Origin: a virus
IMG/VR virus record: IMGVR_UViG_3300025684_000016
Coordinates: 1-64,000 of that record
Strand: one strand, 5' to 3'
Length of the DNA stretch: 64,000 nt
The position numbers and the translations under genes are program-made. How positions within the stretch are numbered: position 1 is the stretch's first letter; every line of letters begins with the position of its first letter. This document shows positions 23,304 through 59,620 of this stretch, one piece after another. Below the pieces are notes generated by a model. The model was not told the origin of the DNA, searched no databases, and worked only from the letters and a program-made list of their open reading frames with translations.

Positions 23304-23909
23304 TTATATTTCATTTTCCACAAACATTTTAAAATTGAATGATGGGTTTATATCTGTATAAATATTTGAAAAATTCGATTTACAAACAATTCCACCTAAT
23401 TTATCGATATTTTCTATAATTCCGTTAGTTGGAACTACGTGTTTTTTGATGTCATACTCCTCACAGAGGTGGTCACACAGGGAAATTAAGGTTTTTATTT
23501 GTTCAGGATTATATCGATCCCAATAAAACTTTTCTCTCCAACTCCTTATAAATGGTTCAGTTCTGTACGGATCTCCAATCCAATTTGAAAAAAACCCCGT
23601 TATTGTATTTTTATTTAACCACCCAAGATTCTCGATTGCAATCTTAATTTGCTGTCTGTCGATTTTGTCAATGTCAAAAGTCTTAGACGAATATTTTACA
23701 TCTAAGACTTTATATATGTCGCCCGACTTACTAATAATGAAGTGTGGAATATCTTCGTATTCACCATTTCTTCGAAATTTGATTTTTTTAACAAAATCAT
23801 CTATTCGTCTTTTAGTATCATATAATAGAATTTGTTTCTTCTTATACGATCTTTTAGAATGGTTTAGGTCGTCCTTATTAATTATTTCTACGTCTCGAAT
23901 TCCCAACAT
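23304..23909 (-). CDS. amidase-like protein lacking zinc ligands
   Basis: A 201-residue protein whose layout resembles the amidase_2 / T7-lysozyme fold: [16 protein letters not shown] (55-70), then [16 protein letters not shown] (133-148), then TDINPSFNF (185-193) near the end. In active enzymes the first zinc His lies where this protein has Y30 (ILLYDT), and the Cys/Asp ligand before PSF is replaced. The fold assignment is inference; if right, the protein is probably inactive on peptidoglycan and may bind it or act in the virion. Its start overlaps the -1-frame extension described below. Confidence 0.5.
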
Positions 23910-24213
23910 TTCTTCTAATTACTTTTTGACCAACCTTCATAAAAGGTTCTAATGGAATATCCCTATTTACCGTAGGTTCCAAATACAATTCATCAACATA
24001 AATAGTTGGTGTCGGAGTTGCACTTGGAAATGGAGTACTACTTGGTGTTGGTGTAGGGTTCTCCGTTGATTGTGGAGTGGACGTTGGTCCTTCAGTTTGT
24101 GAAGGTATTGGTGTTGGGTTCTCCGTTGGAAATGGTGTTGGACTACTGAAAGGTGTTGAACTTAATGTCGGACTTGGGGTTTCGGTAGTTTCTATTATTT
24201 TTTTTTTTCGGGA
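23878..24213 (-). CDS. Pro/Thr-rich -1-frame continuation of the membrane protein
   Basis: The reverse strand is open from 24213 to a stop at 23880-23878 in the -1 frame relative to the 437-residue gene, but contains no usable start before the coding-looking part. After the A11 run (24208-24198) it reads 104 residues: a Pro/Thr/Ser stretch ([20 protein letters not shown] and similar to about residue 62), then [20 protein letters not shown] and a basic end. The composition equals the linkers of the virion proteins. It is probably expressed by -1 slippage on the A11 run, or the run is miscounted and this is simply the true C-terminus. It overlaps the next gene by 32 bases. Confidence 0.55.
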
Positions 24214-25508
24214 TCATCGTTTGTGATGTCCTTAGTTGTTTCGTTGATTGGTTCCTTAAAAATGAAATTAGGTTCGGGGGTTGGTGGTTCAAACCTCACC
24301 TGTGGAACTTCTTTAATTTCAACATCAACACTAAACTCAGGACCATTATTATTAGGTAACTCGTCCAACACAACATTAACCTCTTTAAGTTTTTCTGTTG
24401 GTGTTGTTATTTGACCCGTATTTAAATCCAATTCTGCCGTTTCAACCACGTCAGGTAGTTGTTCCTTATTTACCTCTCTATATTTTTCTATAGGTACACC
24501 ATTAACGTGTTGTGGTGTCTTAGACGATAAAACCAAATTATAATCCTTATCAGGTTCTGTATCAGTTGTGTATTCTATATTTTCATTGAATTGGTGTGTA
24601 GATGGTTCTATTGTTTCTGGTTCATTAACTTCAATGTCTTTGACCATATCATTTAAAACCATATCCAACGCATGATCCTCATCCCACTTATCATCTACGT
24701 CAGTTTCAGTCTGACTATCTTCATATGGAATATCATCTAAACCATCATTAATTGTAGTGTCGAAATCTTTGTAGTCTTCTTCCGTTGGTTCAGGTCCATC
24801 ATTTAACCATGATGGTGGTTCAGGTGTTTTATTTCTTTCAGTGTCGTAATAGTGTTCACTTTTAGGTTCTTCTTCATCAGAGACTTTGGTCTTGGGTTTA
24901 GATAATATCTCATTTAATTTATCCAACTCCTCTGTTGTTGGTCGATATCTTGCAATCTCACCAACTAAATCAGATGCCTGTATTGGGTCTTCTTTAGGTT
25001 CGGTACTTGATTTGTCTTTTGTTTCATTAGAAAGTGTTCTCTCTTCATTAAACTTAACTAACATGTGAAGGAAAGATAACGATATCAGTGGTAACATACC
25101 CCCCGAAAATATAGCAAGAAAACGTCTATGTGATTGTAAATTATCTTGTTCAACACCAACATATTCCAATATTGGACCTGTTAGATCAACCCATGATAAA
25201 AATTGTGCAGATGAAATATCAATGTATTCGAATGCGAAGAATATATTCCCAACAAACTGAATTATTGTTACAATACCGAATGGTACGTAAACTTTAGAAC
25301 CCATATTGACCGATATTGCCGCCAATGCAGATAACGCAGCAATTTCAATACCTATTGAAAGATATAATGCCCACGACATAGGGTTTGACATTCCATACCA
25401 CCCCGTTACGTGTGATATTGACACAATTGCAACCGTAATGATAGGAACAAGAAACGCTACGTAGATAATTGTTTTAAAATTTCTACTAAACCAATTCGTA
25501 CCCTTCAT
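24195..25508 (-). CDS. multi-pass membrane protein with long acidic tail
   Basis: A 437-residue protein. Residues about 10-155 hold four likely membrane segments (for example [18 protein letters not shown] and [20 protein letters not shown]). Residues about 160-437 are hydrophilic, strongly acidic and Pro-rich (EPPTPEPNF), probably cytoplasmic. The zero frame ends EKKK-stop exactly at an A11 run, after which the -1 frame continues (see 23878-24213). No known family. It lies between a small membrane protein and the amidase-like gene, so an envelope role is possible. Confidence 0.75.
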
Positions 25509-25509
25509 A

Positions 25510-25812
25510 TTATTTTTTTAATTCACTTTCTAAGGATTCAAGTTCTTTCTCGATCTGACTTTGTCTTTGTAAATCAAACATTTTTCTGTCAGTTGCCTGT
25601 ATCATTCTATGTTCACTTTTTAAACCTTCAATCTTTAATCTAAGATCAATCTCATCCTTAGTAAATGTGTGATTTTCGTTATATTCTTTTAAGTCTCTCA
25701 TTTCTTTTTTGATTGAGGACATTTCTCTACTATCACCACAACCTCTAAAGAATGTAAATATTAGTACAACAAATACAATAACGTTAAAATACTTTTCTAT
25801 AAAATTTTTCAT
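25510..25812 (-). CDS. membrane-anchored coiled-coil protein
   Basis: A 100-residue protein with one N-terminal membrane segment (VIVFVVLIFTFF), then RGCGDSRE and a charged heptad-like helix to the end (EIDLRLKIEGLKSEH ... EKELESLESELKK). Topology and size resemble an inner-membrane spanin subunit. It shares the segment-then-RGCGD arrangement with the 233-residue gene at 27133. An octamer promoter candidate overlaps the stop codon of the sigma gene just upstream. Confidence 0.65.
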   Translation of the reverse strand: MKNFIEKYFNVIVFVVLIFTFFRGCGDSREMSSIKKEMRDLKEYNENHTFTKDEIDLRLKIEGLKSEHRMIQATDRKMFDLQRQSQIEKELESLESELKK

Positions 25813-27132: not shown

Positions 27133-27834
27133 TTATTTTTTGTTTAAATTAATTTTCCAAAAGATTCCACCACCGATGTAAGGTACCACACCATCTACTC
27201 CGTTGGTTTGTACACCTAAATTTAATTGATACAATTTATCAGACTTTGTCTTTAATATAAGACCACCTGATGCCGTTGAGAATATATCTTGTTTGTTTCC
27301 ACCAAGATTAAAACCATAGTAAAGTTGTGTTTTAGGTAAATCCTTCACTATTGTTGTGTTATATATAGTAGGAACTTCAAAATTCCAAACAACGTCCCTA
27401 CTTAATACTTTATTTTGTGTTATAGTATCAGTAATAACCCCAAAACCTAATGTTGGATTTGGTTTAGTACCAATCGAATCTATTGTGATTTCAGGTGCAA
27501 ACTCATAAGTTAACCTTAAGGTATCTTTAGTTACAAACTTAGAATAATAGTCCTTAATAATTTGTAGAGAGTCAACGTGTGTTGGTATTTTAACTATCTT
27601 CTCAACAACCCTGTCAACGTATTTAGGTACGTATGTAGGTACTTCAACACGTTTTTCAACAAAAACAGTATCAATGGTTTTATCCACCAATTCATACTTT
27701 TTACCATCCACCTTAACGATTTCTTTAGTTCCTTGTGGTGTATCACCACATCCCCTTAAGAGGAGGAATATAATAAGTCCGACAATGATTATTGTCTTTA
27801 TATCGAGTTTAAAAAAATTGTTAGATAGTCCCAT
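27133..27834 (-). CDS. membrane-anchored envelope protein
   Basis: A 233-residue protein with one N-terminal membrane segment (IIIVGLIIFLLL) followed by RGCGD. Then comes a stalk rich in Val/Pro/Tyr (VEKRVEVPTYVPKYVDRVVE) and a C-terminal beta-rich part (LYYGFNLGGNKQDIFSTASG, VPYIGGGIFWKINLNKK) that resembles outer-membrane or periplasmic strands. It may span the periplasm and act in lysis (spanin-like) or superinfection control; both are inference. An octamer promoter candidate lies four bases before the ATG. Confidence 0.7.
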   Translation of the reverse strand: MGLSNNFFKLDIKTIIIVGLIIFLLLRGCGDTPQGTKEIVKVDGKKYELVDKTIDTVFVEKRVEVPTYVPKYVDRVVEKIVKIPTHVDSLQIIKDYYSKFVTKDTLRLTYEFAPEITIDSIGTKPNPTLGFGVITDTITQNKVLSRDVVWNFEVPTIYNTTIVKDLPKTQLYYGFNLGGNKQDIFSTASGGLILKTKSDKLYQLNLGVQTNGVDGVVPYIGGGIFWKINLNKK

Positions 27835-36083: not shown

Positions 36084-36112
36084 TATACAATAATATACGA
36101 AAAAAAAATGAC

Positions 36113-40836: not shown

Positions 40837-42648
40837 TTAGACAGGTTCTAAACCTTCATCACGACCACCGCCACATTTATTTGTGGTTCCATAATTACCA
40901 TTTTTTTGGAAAAGTAATTTTTCACTACCTTCTGTTGATTCATCTGCGACCATATATGTACCATCAGACGAATATCTAAAGACTGTTGGTGTTCCAGACC
41001 ATATAGAATTAGGGTGTATTGTGTATGCACCACCACCACCATTTATAATCTCATTATCTGATAGTGCAAATGTTGATTTAACTATATTTTTCCCATCTGC
41101 ATTGGTGGTGAACCATGATGTGTTATAAGTTACATAAACTCTATTTTCTAAAATACCATCATTACCTTCATCACAATTCGCGTTGTTTGGTGCTGAAGTT
41201 GTGTTAGATAATAAAATGGCAGATATCTCTGTCGTCTCTGTTGTAGGACTTGGAGTTGGTTGTGGGGTTGGACTTGGTTCTTGTTCATATGTACAATTAC
41301 GATTTTCAGTACATGACCCTCCACTTGGTGGTCTTTCTACACCGGATGGGTCTATCACTGCCGCACCTCCACCAGACTGACCGAAATCAAACCATAGTGG
41401 TGTTGTTTGAGAACATACACCATATACCGATCCACTCACCCCTTGATATACTGCAAGAGTAGCCAAAAGATTTGAGAACGGTGTAAGTATTGCTGTTTCA
41501 CCACCTTGGAAGTAATCTAATCCCTGATTAGTTGTGTCGACGTTATTAGGAACAAATACAAAGTTACAGGTTAATGCACTAACCTCTGTTGTGGGACTTG
41601 GAGTTGGTGATGGGCTCGGAGAAGGAGATGGGCTTGGTGTCGGATTAGGTGATGGACAAATACCTCCAACACAATCTGAACCTATACTATAACTTAATTT
41701 AGCGTCCGACACCGTTATATTTTGACCACTACCACACACACTAAATGTTTCTTGAGTATAAGTCGTTCCTGTTTGAGGGACTCCCGAACAATCATCGTAA
41801 CCGTAATATCTTGCTCCGCTTGAGTTATGAGAGAACTCTATACAAACACAAGGTCCTTCAGTTGGTGTTGGTGTAGGAGTTGCAATGTTAATATCAACAT
41901 CAAAGTCACAATTTTCTGTAACTGTTGGTGTAGGTGATGGAGATGGTGTTGGACTACTTGAAGGTGTTGGACTTGGTGTTGGACTTGGTGTTGGAGTATT
42001 ATCACAAACACCATCAGTACATGTTCCGTAAACGCCGTAAGTTACTTTTTCAGCAACTGATATTATACTTTGTGCACATACGTGAAATGTTATTTCCTCC
42101 ATTGGTGGAGTGTCAGACGTTGCATTTACTGTCACACCACTACAATCAACATATGAGTAACTGAAATAACCCTGACGATTACTATTAATTTCGAAACATT
42201 GACACGCCACCTCATCCGTAGGTGTTGGAGTAGGGCTTGGTGATGGGGTTGGACTTGGTGATGGACTATATTCCACAAAATTAACCGTGAAATTACAATC
42301 AGTCGTTGGTGTTGCGGTTGGTGTTGATGTTGGGCTTGGTGTGGCAACAGGACTAAATGGTGGACAGTTTTCACAATCAATATTAATTAACTTAACTTGA
42401 AAACCACCTTGTCTTTTAGGTAATTCAGATGGTGGTGGTGTAACGTAAAAATCACAGTGTACCAAAAAGATATATAAAGGACCTTCATATGTACCAACAT
42501 CAAATGTGTGTGGTAAACTATGTGATCCAATTGATTGTGCACTTACAGGTATTATATATGGATCACCGTTGTAGGTTGTACCCGTATATATTGTGAATTC
42601 ATCACATACACCATTTTCATATAGATTATTTACCGTTATAAGACTCAT
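40837..42648 (-). CDS. modular virion protein with repeated Cys domains and Pro/Thr linkers
   Basis: A 603-residue protein. The N-terminal beta module is followed by Pro/Thr/Ser linkers that separate two copies of a small domain with pattern C-x-C-x-E ... Y-x-D-C-S-G ... F-x-V-C (about residues 145-210 and 270-335), a third Cys-bearing domain and a Gly/Ser C-terminal domain. One NCDFDVD tag precedes the second Cys domain. The same Cys pattern ends the 2045-residue protein. Probably an elongated virion appendage. Octamer promoter candidate upstream. Confidence 0.75.
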   Translation of the reverse strand: MSLITVNNLYENGVCDEFTIYTGTTYNGDPYIIPVSAQSIGSHSLPHTFDVGTYEGPLYIFLVHCDFYVTPPPSELPKRQGGFQVKLINIDCENCPPFSPVATPSPTSTPTATPTTDCNFTVNFVEYSPSPSPTPSPSPTPTPTDEVACQCFEINSNRQGYFSYSYVDCSGVTVNATSDTPPMEEITFHVCAQSIISVAEKVTYGVYGTCTDGVCDNTPTPSPTPSPTPSSSPTPSPSPTPTVTENCDFDVDINIATPTPTPTEGPCVCIEFSHNSSGARYYGYDDCSGVPQTGTTYTQETFSVCGSGQNITVSDAKLSYSIGSDCVGGICPSPNPTPSPSPSPSPSPTPSPTTEVSALTCNFVFVPNNVDTTNQGLDYFQGGETAILTPFSNLLATLAVYQGVSGSVYGVCSQTTPLWFDFGQSGGGAAVIDPSGVERPPSGGSCTENRNCTYEQEPSPTPQPTPSPTTETTEISAILLSNTTSAPNNANCDEGNDGILENRVYVTYNTSWFTTNADGKNIVKSTFALSDNEIINGGGGAYTIHPNSIWSGTPTVFRYSSDGTYMVADESTEGSEKLLFQKNGNYGTTNKCGGGRDEGLEPV

Positions 42649-51643: not shown

Positions 51644-54600
51644 CTAACAACTTGGAATTGTATAACCTAAATTATTCATTGCGTTTACTATTAGATCCAT
51701 ATAATATTGTGGTGTACTTCCTGCAATCGTATCTTGAACACAACTAACTTCAGTTTTATCACTTAATCCCGCAGTTCCCGAATAATAACCCGTTCCACTA
51801 AACAACGCATTCATAAATGCTTGATATTGTGGGTATGCATCGTTTCCACCACTTAAAGTGTCCACTTGGAATATTATTCCTCTATGTGACGTTGAGCTGG
51901 TTGCGTTGGTCAAATTAGTTCTTAAGAGTGTAATATCACTATTACCCACTGTACTACCATTTGTCCAACCACTAACCGTTGGTGATTCTGCTTCGTATGA
52001 GTTACTCTCATCTGCGAATGCTAAATTCACCACATTCCTTGACGGATCTGATGGTTGAGTTGCAATCCAACTAATCGCCCTTTCATTACTAATACTTGTT
52101 ATTGTTACTCTTGAATTATATAAGTTAACATCATTATCATAGAATGGTAATAAACAATTCTGTAAAAGAGTACTCCTCATTGTATTAAGTGGACTTAGTG
52201 TTGAGTTCATTGAACCTGAACTATCAAAGAATATATTTATCTCCGTATCTGTACTAACCACTATCTCTTCCTGAATAACCTCAGTCGCTTGAACCTCAAA
52301 AGTACAATCACATAATATGTGTACATATTCTAAATCAAATAACGTCTGATTCCATTCGGCAACAACAAACACCGCATTATTATTAGAGTCAATAAATCTA
52401 ATTCCTGTGTCGTATAAAATATTTGTACCATGAGGTGTTAAATTACCTAATGAGTGATCCACACTACTAACTTGGGTACCGACAGGTGTTACGTGTTGTC
52501 CAACACAACTTGTGTTAGATCCACCAGAATAACCACGTACATAAACTAAACATGATGTGGAATCATACCACCATTCTTCACCGTCAGTATCAACACCAGG
52601 TGTCTCAGCACAATACCCACCTAAATCATATATTCCAGCTCCACTAACTCCTGTTCCTGTGGACACGAATAAACCACTAAAGATTTCAGTTCCACAATTT
52701 GGTGGACAACCTACCGATGTAGGACTTGGACTCGGACTCGGTGATGGACTCGGAGAAGGAGATGGACTTGGTGTAGGACTCGGACTCGGAGATGGACTTG
52801 GTGTAGGACTCGCAGTTGGGTTTGGTGTAGCACTTGGGCTTGGTGTTGGTGTAGGAGTTGCAATATCTATGTCAACATCAAAATCACAATTCGGAGTTGC
52901 CGAAGGTGATGGAGACGGTGATGGTGATGGTGTAGGACTTGCAGTCACACTTGGTGTTGGTGATGGACTTGGGCTTGGTGATGGTGTTGGTGATGGTGAC
53001 GGACTTGGTGTAGGACTCGCAGTTGCATCAGGTGTCACACTTGGTGATGGTGATGGACTTGCAGTTGGATTTGGTGTCGAACTTGGACTCGGCGTAGGAG
53101 TTGGTGTAGCAATATCTATATCAACATCGAAATCACAATTCGGAGTTGCCGATGGTGATGGGGTTGGAGTTGAACTCGCGGTCGTACTTGGTGATGGTGA
53201 CGGACTTGGTGTAGGACTCGCAGTTGTACTTGGACTTGGTGACGGTGTAGGTGATGGACTTGGCGTAGGAGTTGGGGTAGCAATATCTATATCAACATCG
53301 AAATCACAATTAACCGTTGGTGACGGTGAAGGAGATGGTGATGGTGACGGACTTGGTGATGGGCTCGGAGATGGGCTTGGCGTCGGACTCGCAGTCACAC
53401 TTGGTGATGGAGATGGACTCGGACTTGGTGATGGTGTAGGACTCGCACTCGGCATAGGAGTTGGAGTTGCAATGTTTATATCAACATCGAAATCACAATT
53501 TATTGTTGGTGTAGGAGATGTCGACGGACTCGGTGATGGTGTAGGAAATTGTGTAGCATCAGGTGTTGCCGGTGGTGTTGCAGTTGGGTCAGGTGTTGGT
53601 GCTGGTGTTGCCGAAGGTGATGGGGTTGCAGTTGGGGTAGCAATATCTATATCTACGTCAAAGTCACAATTCGGGGTTACCGACGGACTTGGGCTTGGTG
53701 ATGGTGATGGTGTAGGACTCGCAGTTGTACTCGGACTCGGTGATGGAGATGGAGATGGGGTTGGACTTGCAGTTGTACTCGGACTTGGTGATGGTGTAGG
53801 ACTCGCACTCGGCATAGGAGTTGGAGTTGCAATGTTTATATCAACATCGAAATCACAATTCGGGGTTGCTGATGGTGATGGACTTGGTGATGGACTTGGC
53901 GTCGGACTTGCCGTTACACTCGGACTCGGTGATGGAGAAGGAGATGGTGTAGGACTTGGGCTTGGTGTAGGACTACTTGAAGGTGCAGGTGTTGGTGTCG
54001 CAATGTTTATATCAACATCAAAGTCACAATTAGCCGTAGCCGATGGACTTGGGCTTGGTGATGGTGATGGTGATGGTGTAGGACTCGGGCTTGGTGTAGG
54101 AGTTGGGGTAGCAATATCTATATCAACATCGAAATCACAATTAACCGTTGGTGTAGGACTTGCCGTTACACTTGGACTTGGTGATGGAGATGGGCTCGGA
54201 CTTGGGCTCGGTGATGGTGTCGGACTACTTGAAGGTGCGGGTGTTGGAGTCGCAATGTTTATATCAACATCAAAGTCACAATTTTCTGTAACTGTTGGTG
54301 TAGGTGATGGAGATGGTGTTGGTGTAGGAGTTGCAATATCTATGTCAACATCAAAATCACAATTAGCGGTAACTGTTGGTGTAGGTGATGCAGACGGTGA
54401 AGGAGTTGGAGTTGCAATGTTAATATCAACATCGAAATCACAATTTTCTGTAACTGTTGGTGTAGGACTCGGGCTTGGCGTAGGAGTTGGAGTTGCAATA
54501 TCAACGTCCACGTCGAAATCACAATTTTCTGTAACTGTTGGAGTTGGAGATGGGCTTGGCGTAGGAGTTGGTGTAGCAATATCAACGTCCACGTCGAAAT

Positions 54601-57600
54601 CACAATTTATCGTTGGTGTAGGACTTGCAGTCACACTTGGTGAAGGGGTCGGAGTCGCAATGTTTATATCAACATCAAAGTCACAATTTTCTGTAACTGT
54701 TGGAGTTGGAGATGGTGTTGGAGTCGCAGTTGGTCCCGCAATATCTATATCCACGTCGAAATCACAGTTCGGTATATCTATATCCACGTCGAAATCACAG
54801 TTCGGTGTTGCCGAAGGTGATGGTGACGGTGTAGGACTTGCAGTCACACTTGGTGAAGGACTTGGTGATGGTGTCGGACTACTTGAAGGTGATGGTGATG
54901 GTGTCGGACTTGCAGTCACACTTGGTGAAGGACTTGGTGATGGGCTCGGTGTAGGAGATGGGGTTGGACTTGCGGTCACACTTGGTGTTGGTGCCGGTGT
55001 TGCAGTTGGTGGTTGTGTTGGTCCTGGTGTGGGTGTAGGTATGTCATTACAATCCTCAGTATAAATTGGTCGATTTAAATCTTCAATTGAAGGTATAACA
55101 GCACAATCTAATTGGTCTTGGAAATATTGTTGAGCACTTAATGATAAATCCTCAAATGTTTGTTGTGGATAGTGAACTAAAATACAGTCGTCATCATCTC
55201 CGTTATATAAAATAACCTGTGGATATGCCACTTCAGACACTTGTGTCATTGTTAAGTGATAAAATAATTCACGTTCACAATATTCTAAATCTAAACTCGT
55301 AACTTCAATTGGGAAACCAAATTCATTAATAAGATAATCACCTTTTATGAAGTAATCCTTATCATATGTACAACATGGGTCAACACCTTGTTCTAAAGGT
55401 CTAACAAATAAATCTTCAGGGTATTTTTCTGTAAATTCCCACAAACCACTCACTTTAGTTAATACCCTCACCTTTGTATTTGGTAGGATTCTAAAACGAT
55501 CATTAATGACGTTCATTTTAGTAGTCCCCAAACAATCAATATTATCTACAGTAACTTCAGTGTAGTTCTGACCAAATGAGAATCCATTTAAAACTGAGTC
55601 TCTAAAATCTTCAGAACCAAACGGACATGACAAATATTCACCCGACAACAATCTATCACCATCATTCACTTCTTGAGCCTTGATTCGTACTATATTATTA
55701 CCATTAATTAATGTCTGTATATCTTCCCATGTTGTGGTTGATGATATAACCACCGCATTGTCTACAATTTTTAAAACTGTACTATCTTGTTTTATTCCAT
55801 AATCAAATGTTGGTCGATACTGTACCTTAGGATGTATAGTATATCCAAGGTAATTATCACAATATGTTATACCACTTAGAGTCTCTATTGCCACATTACC
55901 ATTTTCTGGTAATTCACCAGGTAAAAAAGATTCTACAGAATATTCAACATAATGACTTTTTGGTTCTGTAACCGTATCATTAATTGGATCCCATTCTAAT
56001 TTTTGTTGTAACCCCTCAATTCTTACTTTTTGATCACAGTTTGCTGCGTCGGTGATTGATATATCAATGACATCATGTTCTCTTACATTTTTTACTATAA
56101 ATGTACAACCCGACACATAATCAACCACATAAGATGGTGGTTCTGAAATACCCTCATTGTAATCACCAAGACAATTAATGAATATGTTAACCGGCCAATC
56201 AGTATTGTATGGTGGACATGTATCACACACATCACCATTATCAACAGTATCTTCATTTCCAAATGTTATACCTGATACCTCAAAATAAACGTCTGACACT
56301 AACACACATTCGTCAGGATCTTCAGGTAATGTATACATTGTACCATCACCATATACCTTAACTTTAGGGTCACATTTTGTTGTTCCTGTTAGGTAAACCG
56401 AATCAAAATAGAAATCAAACGTACTCGGATCTAAACAATCAAAATCAACAGGTGTATATGTCACATAAGGTGATCCCGTTGCACTATATAATTGTAAATT
56501 ATAAACGTAGGGTACAATTGCAATTTTTTGAATACCATCCGTATCTGTAAAAATTCTATAATCTAATAAAGGTGCGTATTCATAATCATATGTTTCAGTC
56601 ACTTTCGCAACACCACTAACATCATCAGTTGTATCACTTAGTTCGTTTGTGAATGCCGTAGATATTGATGTATTACCACTTACTTTAAATTCTTCCCATC
56701 CAGCATGGTTGTTAATTAACCCACCATGACCAGTGTATTTTGTTTTCTTATAATATGTCTTATTGATTTGATTATCAATAATATCTTTTATTTCGTCAAT
56801 CCAAAGACATTCTAAAATCTCCAATTGTGGTTCTAAATAACATTTAAAATCACATAATAGTGGTAAGTGTACCGTTTTATCAAATTGGGTACCTCCACTT
56901 GTCACTGATTCTTGTGTTAATGTTGTTATCCCTGAAAATTCAAGAAACTCAACAGTTTGAGCACAATTATCATTATCAAAGTATACATTTTCAATGTCAG
57001 TACATTCAGATGTTATTGTGTATGGATCGAATAACCCCGCATGATTATGATTAACAAGTATTTCATCACATGTTGAACCAGTTACTGTTTGTGTCTCACC
57101 ACTAATGACAATATCAGTATCACCAGTAAATGTCAACCCATTAAAGTCAATATGAAGTGTGTAAGTCACACCACTTACAACTGTAAGTCCCCTGAAATTA
57201 TCATGGTCACCTAAAATTGTTTCTAAATCTTCTTCAATTACATCCTCAAACTTAGGAAAAAGGTTTTGTGTAAACTCATTTGGTAAACATGGTTTCTCAT
57301 ATTCAAACTTAGATCTTCCAATTCTACCGTTTTCAATGATATTACCACCAGTCCATAGTGTTGTGGCAGGAACAAATTGTTCAATCACTTGTGTCCAATA
57401 AGGACTCATTCGGTTTATAAATTCACTAACAGTAGGTAAACTATATGGATTGGACACCTTTGATAGGTAACCCTCATATATGTCTTCTAACTGTATATAA
57501 TTCTTTTTATATCGAATTATGTGTGTGTTACGTATTTGTTCGTTTAAAACGTGTTCAGTGTACTCAGCAAACGTGAATCCTGTCTGTGGTTCTAACGTTG

Positions 57601-59620
57601 CACGACCAAACGACACTTTTAATTCTCTACTTTGTCTGTATATGTCATTATCAACACCTTGTGACGATGAAAGATAGATTTGAATATTTTTTCTGTTAAG
57701 GATTCTTGAATCTTCATCTTCTAAAACTTCTGTCTTATCATTGTCAACCGTGTTATGTAATTCATAACCGTAATCTAAACCCGAAAACTGTCTATATAGG
57801 TCAAAATAGTCCTCACCATAGGTGAAATCTTTGTTTTTAGTCTTTATAACTTTAGGGTTCAAAGTCAAGTTTGAATTCTCAGTATCTAACTCAGTTGATG
57901 ATCTGTGGTCTAATGTTATATCATACCATCCAGCACCTTTTTGGAAGAATGTGTCTTGTTTTTCACTTTCTATACCCTTTATATCCCCATATTGTGATTT
58001 ACCCGACACAAGACTTACAGGGTATTCACCCTCACTATAAAGTGTGGAACCTGTGGTAGTTACACTATTGTAACTAAAACCTGTTGTTGATAATGATCCC
58101 ACTTTAAAGGTTTTATCACCTTGAATAAGGTCATAAACATCACTATCAATGTCACTCGTTGTCTTTTTTACTTGATCGTAACGGTAAACATATTCGTTAA
58201 TATTAATCAACGGTTCAGGTGCACCAATAAATCTTAAAAAGAATTCAATTGCTTTCCTTGTACCTTTTGATTTGTAAATGTGTGAAAGGTTGATGACAAG
58301 TCTTCTGTAAAACTCAGTCTCTGCTTCCACCATATTCATTCCAACACCAACACCATCGTACTGACTGTCAACTCTTGTGTAAAGTGAATCCTGTAGATTC
58401 TTTTCGTCAAATAGGTTTAAAGTGTCTAAACCAAGTGTGTTGGATAAGTTTTTTAAAAGTACGTCAGGTAGGTTATTAATACGATCATAACTCACATTTC
58501 TCATGTAAGCGATATTATCAATAAACTTCTTAACCTGATCAAAACTATGACCAAGTAACTGAGTTGCCGAGTCAAATCTTCTATCCTCAGTATCAAATTC
58601 GTATAATGATGCGGTCGTTAAAAATCTTGAAACTACATTCGATTTGTAATTATCAATACGTTCACCGAGTATACTTAACTCTTCAACATAATTTATGTAT
58701 GCACTTCCCGATATCTTTAAATTCCATTTATCCCTATATAGTGGCCACGAAATCTCATTAGTTTTTAGTTCTGTTTTTGAACCATCGAAACTATCTTCAG
58801 GTGCTCTGAACTTTGCGGTGTATTTTATTTTAGATTCACGATTTAATAAAACCGATTCTAAGTCATCTAACCCTTCAAAAAATTCTTCAACAACACTATT
58901 GTTCGGTCTTATTAAAAAACTATCGTCATATGTTGATGCCCCACCAAATGGAGACCCTTTTACCGTTAGACTTACTAACCCACTTAAATTAACCTCAGTA
59001 TAACTTATAACCTGATATGAAATCGAATTTACTTCTAATTCATATCTCTTAAAAGAATCGTAAAAATTCTTAATAGTGTTCGTTGTCTCAGGTAATGTAT
59101 TACTCTTTGGTTTTTCAAGAATAACATCTAACGGATTGAATATTTTACTATTTTCAATCTGAAATGAAGTTACATTGGTTTTCTTATTATATGTAGAATT
59201 TAACGCGGTAAATAACGTAGATGCCGTTGGGGTTTCTTTATCAATATAAATTCCAGCTGGAAACTTACCAATGATTCTTGATACGGATACCTGTAATCTT
59301 TGTTTTAGTGAACCAAATAAAGATTTACCACCATCTTCATTAGATTTTCTAAAGGTTACCTTATCCTTTCTTCTTTTAGTTGTAATTGTAGAGACACCAC
59401 TTTCAATTGGTTCCTCTTCTTTAATGTCCTCAAATGTGAGGTATTCAGAAAATGGTTTAGATTGGAATGATTTTTTATCCCTTTGGGGAATACTTTTATC
59501 CAATGCAAAGTTCGCAGAGGTCAGCTGACTTGTACCATCGGTAATTTGATTACCGACCAAGTTGTCATTAAAGGTTTCCCTCCCACTCGCCGCTTGACTT
59601 GGAACTTTTCTTTTCGCCAT
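51644..59620 (-). CDS. giant baseplate-like protein with Pro/Thr/Ser repeat and vWA domain
   Basis: A 2658-residue protein. Residues 1-1520 resemble a large baseplate wedge component: a basic N-terminus, helical segments, and [20 protein letters not shown] near 455 (a motif of phage tail proteins that start the baseplate). Beta-rich Cys-containing domains follow. Residues about 1523-2300 are Pro/Thr/Ser repeats with sixteen NCDFDVD tags. Residues about 2300-2460 form a Cys-bearing domain. Residues about 2460-2658 are a vWA domain with [13 protein letters not shown], paralogous to the end of the 378-residue protein. The 304-residue gene upstream overlaps it by one base (TAATG). It would join the baseplate to an adhesive end. 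Confidence 0.82.
52720..55050 (-). repeat. 2.3-kb Pro/Thr/Ser repeat array with sixteen NCDFDVD tags
   Basis: The array consists of (S/T)P-type linkers of variable length broken by tags NCDFDVD[IV][DN]IATPTP. The tag DNA is almost identical from copy to copy (more than 30 bases), for example near 52865, 53115, 53285, 53645, 54115 and 54745. At 54735-54800 two tags follow each other directly. The structure invites unequal recombination and length change. Confidence 0.85.

Follow-up and report, generated by a model that had tools for sequence, protein, structure and literature searches.

A conserved A-run closing a phage membrane-protein gene is most likely a programmed slip site for a short and a long product

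In the stretch of viral DNA analyzed here (64,000 nt, hereafter the window, part of a 74,841-base virus record), the gene for a membrane protein stops directly after a run of eleven A's, and a second frame is open across the run into a long tail. Does this gene encode one product or two, and if two, what changes the frame? The sequence-only reading had proposed that slippage yields a short and a long product; the conserved split, selection on the tail and retention of the run where the frames flip lend support to that proposal. On the sequences compared, a programmed dual-product slip site giving a short and a long form is the most likely interpretation.

The slip gene and its A-run

The features of the locus are listed below; all lie on the minus strand.

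25035..25508, minus: N-terminal membrane domain, very conserved, with 66-85% identity to relatives (from model and alignment)
24195..25508, minus: short form, the zero-frame ORF, a membrane protein of 437 aa ending DPEKKK-stop (read from the sequence and relatives)
24198..24208, minus: A11 slip site, exactly eleven A's (read from the sequence; homologous runs in relatives)
24195..24197, minus: zero-frame stop TAA, directly 3' of the A11 run (0-12 nt past the run in all relatives of the shift type, described below)
23878..24207, minus: tail in the −1 frame, 109 codons counted from the run and then a stop, accessible only by a frame change (from the sequence and relatives)
23974..23994, minus: the tail's DELYLEP motif, corresponding to (D/E)LY(W/M)E in the tails of many relatives
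23878..23909, minus: 32-nt overlap of the tail end with the start of the amidase-like gene (read from the sequence and relatives)
23304..23909, minus: Amidase_2-like gene, 201 aa, without the two His (CHT, GHNT) of a non-shift sister group

At the run, the minus strand reads GAT GAT CCC GAA AAA AAA AAA TAA TAG. Re-reading the letters showed that the sequence-only reading had correctly placed and described the A11 run (24208-24198), right before the zero-frame stop of an ORF ending EKKK. Its account of the −1 frame was equally accurate: a stop (TGA, 24216-24214) lies two codons ahead of the run, and 104 of the 109 tail codons follow the zero-frame stop, with no ATG, GTG or TTG in the first ~70 codons of the tail and a tail stop at 23880-23878. 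The tail begins with a Pro/Thr/Ser-rich part, followed by an acidic/aromatic motif and a basic end. The long product predicted from −1 slippage (or one added A) has 543 aa. Elsewhere in the 64 kb window only two runs of A9 or longer occur, both A9, at 36100 (+) and 27860 (-), the latter at the very end of a ClpP-like ORF (...IVNKKK-stop).

The membrane domain was modeled, at pLDDT 75, as a mostly helical bundle that spans the membrane with about four helices. No Pfam family covers the domain, PHROG gave no useful match and the PDB no meaningful fold (best E 1.8), and its BFVD matches are uncharacterized phage proteins only. No relative of the slip gene was found in bacterial genomes. Among annotated phages, the closest are LR756500, with 28% over 31%, and the immuto phages of Flavobacterium, which share only a module of 45 residues; run plus tail are absent from both. 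In Flavobacterium phage immuto 2-6A (immuto26A_86; L010, 4143-5288), the module shared with the window (~24640-24760), W(D)VTxxDGL plus WDEDHxLDxVMNDMV, follows a membrane head of another kind and has the look of a short, mobile interaction motif. Upstream of the slip gene, 25510-25812 (-) and 27133-27834 (-) encode two small proteins that each have a single N-terminal membrane segment and, behind it, the sequence FFRGCGD / LLLRGCGD. The protein from 25510-25812 is a coiled coil, and its gene ends 1 nt before the slip gene start. Judging by the gene neighborhood, our guess is that the slip protein could have an envelope- or lysis-related role, perhaps as an anchor for a cell-wall-binding amidase-like partner.

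Relatives and gene architectures

Three scans of IMG/VR, the full protein serving as query first and alignments of the conserved N-terminal membrane domain later, yielded close to two hundred contigs. After removal of duplicates, the relatives fall into three architectures: a shift type with 45 distinct genes (window included), an in-frame type with 4 and a non-shift type with 20. Two more shift-type loci, L067 (with its duplicate L165) and L157, stand outside these counts solely because a search motif differed.

All 45 shift-type genes share the layout of the window. The run is A9 in 2, A10 in 33 and A11 in 10 of them (L163, L166, L170 and L171, with A11, have short tails); the zero-frame stop follows 0-12 nt after the run in every case, most often as EKKN-stop or EKKK-stop; and the −1 frame stays open over ~30-150 codons, reaching near the start of the next gene (45/45). 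In the in-frame type (L029, L030, L038 and L161) the tail is fused to the zero frame. The non-shift sister group (20 distinct sequences, ~230-300 aa, ending ...RLSYxRRDA) is missing both the terminal slip run and the tail. Homologues without the tail, which according to the sequence-only reading would refute it, are found in this sister group, but the whole lineage of the window has run and tail, 45 genes with a shift and 4 in frame.

Conservation of the run

The A-run is a real, conserved slip site, neither a sequencing error nor a chance occurrence. The loci of 27 shift-type relatives, 311 kb in total and counted on either strand, contain 26 homopolymers of at least ten A or T, and 25 of the 26 are the slip site. 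Other [EK]KK[NK] sites in the same loci carry A9 or longer in 3 of 57 cases, compared with 45 of 45 at the slip site, so that coding necessity does not explain the run. The DNA flanking the run varies among relatives and the split is retained.

The simplest competing explanation is a sequencing or assembly error, or a fresh indel, in a gene that is truly one continuous frame. Homopolymers are error-prone, twelve A's would give the window a single frame, and the tail is in frame in 4 relatives. Against this, the split with A9-A11 recurs in 44 further distinct relatives from many separate metagenomes, all with nearby stops in the standard frame, which answers the concern about sequencing error raised by the sequence-only reading. 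Moreover, near-identical genomes have the same run length every time, including 12 contigs from different metagenomes that are identical through the run; an error is hardly credible on these grounds. The same constancy counts against a phase-variable contingency locus, in which the run length in the DNA would change between phage generations and switch the tail on or off. In favor of such a locus, replication can alter runs of A10-A11, lengths of 9, 10 and 11 occur, and the frame relation is flipped in 4 relatives. However, the length does not vary within near-identical groups, and the genomic state is “off” in 45 of the 49 run-carrying genes, yet the tail is under purifying selection. We regard phase variation as very improbable.

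Selection on the tail

The tail evolves as a translated protein. Between the zero-frame stop and the downstream start, the −1 frames of the 45 tails contain no stop in 3144 codons, compared with 220 and 281 stops in the other frames. With the overlap with the amidase gene excluded, pN/pS of the tail is 0.33 (12 independent close pairs), and it is 0.28 ahead of the first possible start codon (159 codons). Upstream of the run, the open −1 frame contains a start codon in 1/45 genes, and the first later start lies at a median of 15 codons into the tail. Since the tail is under selection ahead of any start, and a start upstream of the run is present in only one gene, the ribosomes that translate it must come from the upstream frame; an independent start for the tail is ruled out.

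Recurring features of the tails are a (D/E)LY(W/L/M)E motif, seen in many of them, and a basic end, which lies either ahead of the next-gene overlap or within it. The tail end RNVGNSRRR is not independent evidence, because it is partly dictated by the overlapping MLxIxxVE start. The sequence-only reading had likened the composition of the tail to the Pro/Thr linkers of virion proteins. This holds for the window, whose tail DNA matches a 603-aa ORF (40837-42648) at 85% identity over 55 nt and a 2658-aa ORF (51644-59620) at 76% over 51 nt, but it applies to only a few lineages, and the tails of most relatives are not Pro/Thr-rich. Such linkers occur in the tails of the window and its nearest relatives, and others have short linkers or none (L018, L033, L043, L060). 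We therefore dropped a virion-linker tail as the defining property, given the tails without Pro/Thr linker in L018, L033 and L043. The conserved elements are the run, the open tail, the next-gene overlap and, for many tails, the (D/E)LY(W/L/M)E motif. The 2658-aa protein (51644-59620 (-)) has roughly twenty CDFDVDI(D/N)IATPTPTP repeats between Pro/Thr/Ser linkers, and a FDVDVEIKPSPTPTPT stretch similar to this repeat lies near the short-form end in L004-L005.

The in-frame relatives show the converse arrangement. Runs of A9-A10 are retained in all 4 (L029, L030, L038, L161), and a slip of one added or one lost A leads to a stop within a few codons; in L029, L038 and L161 either slip does so. 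Examples of the slipped endings are EEKKK-stop in L029 and DDLKKKR-stop in L161. These genes lie at separate places of the membrane-domain tree, and well-supported branches force at least three changes. The run is thus kept whether slippage yields the long or the short form, which indicates that selection holds the pair of products, whichever frame is standard.

The downstream amidase-like gene

The protein encoded downstream matches Pfam PF01510 with 30.6 bits (gathering cut-off 26; E 4.9e-7). Neither the phage collection, searched at E 0.01, nor the PDB contains a match to it. We take the zinc-binding positions to be two His plus Asp/Cys, from general knowledge of the Amidase_2 family rather than from a solved structure. 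At the presumed zinc-His positions the window protein has YDT and PTNG, and the shift and in-frame relatives have YDT/FDT/CDT/HDT in 48/48, with PSQG/PSHG/PTNG at the second site. The sister group has CHT (LCHT) in 17/17 and a GHNT-like sequence in 16/17. The Asp of TD(I/L)NP is retained. With the presumed zinc His lost, the product of this gene in the window is probably amidase-like but non-catalytic. A tree of the amidase-like gene unites the shift and in-frame types in a single clade (100/100), apart from the non-shift type; the loss of the presumed zinc His is found in exactly the lineage with the slip site, while the sister lineage retains them.

Probable mechanism of the frame change

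A programmed polymerase slip site that gives a short and a long form is probably the best explanation of the locus. RNA polymerase would slip on the 9-11 A's and produce some mRNAs with one extra A. Ordinary translation of the unslipped mRNA would give the short form ending at the run, and translation of the +1A mRNA would give the long form, with a C-terminal tail that runs into the start of the next, amidase-like gene and stops there. Selection would then maintain both forms and the ratio between them. We infer that slippage takes place at transcription rather than on the ribosome; with less confidence, we suggest that frame-shifted translation may also raise expression of the downstream gene by translational coupling.

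Several observations bear on the choice between polymerase and ribosome. Runs of 9-11 A's are longer than a ribosomal heptamer needs and within the range known for bacterial polymerase slippage. All 45 shift-type genes have A9-A11 at the frame transition, where transcriptional slippage is expected to have a homopolymer run of ~8-9 or more, and a run whose length is conserved among homologues counts in the literature as evidence of purposeful slippage (PMC1088944). The RNA downstream of the site has no conserved structure (mean z -0.53; 5/27 below -2; several with almost none), nor is an SD-like sequence upstream of the site conserved (20/45 shift-type genes). An SD was seen in only 2 of 35 window genes, in line with a putative host of Bacteroidota type; the phage genes look Bacteroidota-like, and ribosomes of that group do not read SD.

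Programmed −1 ribosomal frameshifting on one or more A_AAA_AAN heptamers in the run would instead produce the long form from a faithful mRNA. A_AAA_AAA is in phase at 45/45 sites, followed by A_AAA_AAT/A/G/C, and ribosomal shifting is the usual recoding route of tailed phages (PMC5009743). The direction is −1 in all 45 shift-type genes, with 4 relatives in frame and the run kept, and Antonov et al. read a conserved direction as a ribosomal sign (PMC3711429); a single inherited origin together with a predominance of one-A insertions would also fix the direction. On the other side, the runs are always 9-11 A's where 7 would do, and the most efficient A-run heptamer of E. coli, A_AAA_AAG, is present in only 3 of 45. 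The lack of a conserved downstream structure or SD-like element lowers the claim, although some prokaryotic −1 frameshift signals have no stimulator. Ribosomal frameshifting is possible, though in our view less likely. A further reading holds that the frame change mainly delivers ribosomes to the amidase-like start, the tail peptide itself mattering little. The long frame ends −38 to +21 nt from the amidase ATG in 45/45. The overlapped ATG has G at −3 in 63/69 genes (508 control starts: A 286, G 50), and A-3G lowered expression by 70% in F. johnsoniae. This context, poor in F. johnsoniae, fits a dependence on ribosomes arriving from the long frame, but a conserved Arg codon partly dictates the G at −3 and offers an alternative explanation. 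A precedent exists in spa13/spa32 of Shigella, where spa13 has a 112-aa extension that overlaps with spa32 and influences expression of the latter (Atkins et al. 2016 review, PMC5009743). Purifying selection on the tail protein well ahead of the overlap and the repeated (D/E)LY(W/L/M)E motif argue against a mainly coupling role, overlaps are frequent among compact phage genes, and the tail stop lies at or just before the amidase ATG in 4 relatives and 21 nt upstream in L135. As the main purpose of the site, coupling appears doubtful.

Comparison with known systems

Close parallels to the proposed polymerase slippage are tssM1 of Citrobacter rodentium and spa13 of Shigella. In tssM1, A11 before a stop gives 20-25% slippage, and both forms are needed, as is their ratio; tssM3 of Y. 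pseudotuberculosis has the reverse direction (Gueguen et al. 2014, PMC4256274). As in tssM1, A11 stands directly before a premature stop in a membrane-protein gene, with a short standard and a long slipped form, and the 4 in-frame relatives resemble the reverse arrangement in Yersinia tssM3. Unlike tssM1, a core component of the T6SS encoded on the host chromosome, for which slippage was measured in RNA, the protein here is unrelated and slippage is deduced from comparison. The run is rare in tssM genes, whereas here it is conserved across a large phage lineage.

As in spa13/spa32, the slippage tail is ~110 residues long and its coding sequence overlaps the start of the next gene; spa13 is a secretion-system gene on a virulence plasmid, with a downstream effect that is shown there and only suggested here. 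The two forms of dnaX (tau/gamma) arise from an A9 by transcriptional slippage in Thermus and from A_AAA_AAG by ribosomal shifting in E. coli, and a two-ORF type with A10 also exists (PMC3711429). There, too, an A-run leads to two C-terminal length variants, either of which is standard depending on the species, and the A10 two-ORF type has the closest layout; unlike the protein described here, DnaX is a cellular replication protein with known stoichiometry. The frame-flip pattern of the 4 in-frame relatives is like that in dnaX and that of tssM1 versus tssM3. The tail-assembly chaperones of tailed phages (lambda G/GT) likewise come from a phage gene with a short and a long product, the latter arising from a −1 shift close to where the first frame ends, but they are cytoplasmic, depend on ribosomal slippage and are encoded beside the tape measure gene, whereas the gene here encodes a membrane protein beside an amidase-like gene.

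Significance

The strongly conserved locus is probably a dual-product recoding site of a known kind, and of probable molecular mechanism, in an unannotated phage family. Gene callers would split the gene or truncate the protein in every genome that carries the site. The retention of the run where the long product becomes standard represents a natural experiment on dual-product genes, and the many independent variants in nature (runs of 9, 10 and 11, two phases and in-frame relatives) make the choice between polymerase and ribosome directly testable. If the proposal is true, polymerase slippage, rare in reports on tailed phages, would be used by a whole environmental phage lineage. The slip site and the loss of the presumed zinc ligands coincide in that lineage. 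As a tentative extension, a lineage of large phages may use polymerase slippage to set the ratio of the forms of an envelope protein and, by coupling, the dose of a pseudo-amidase.
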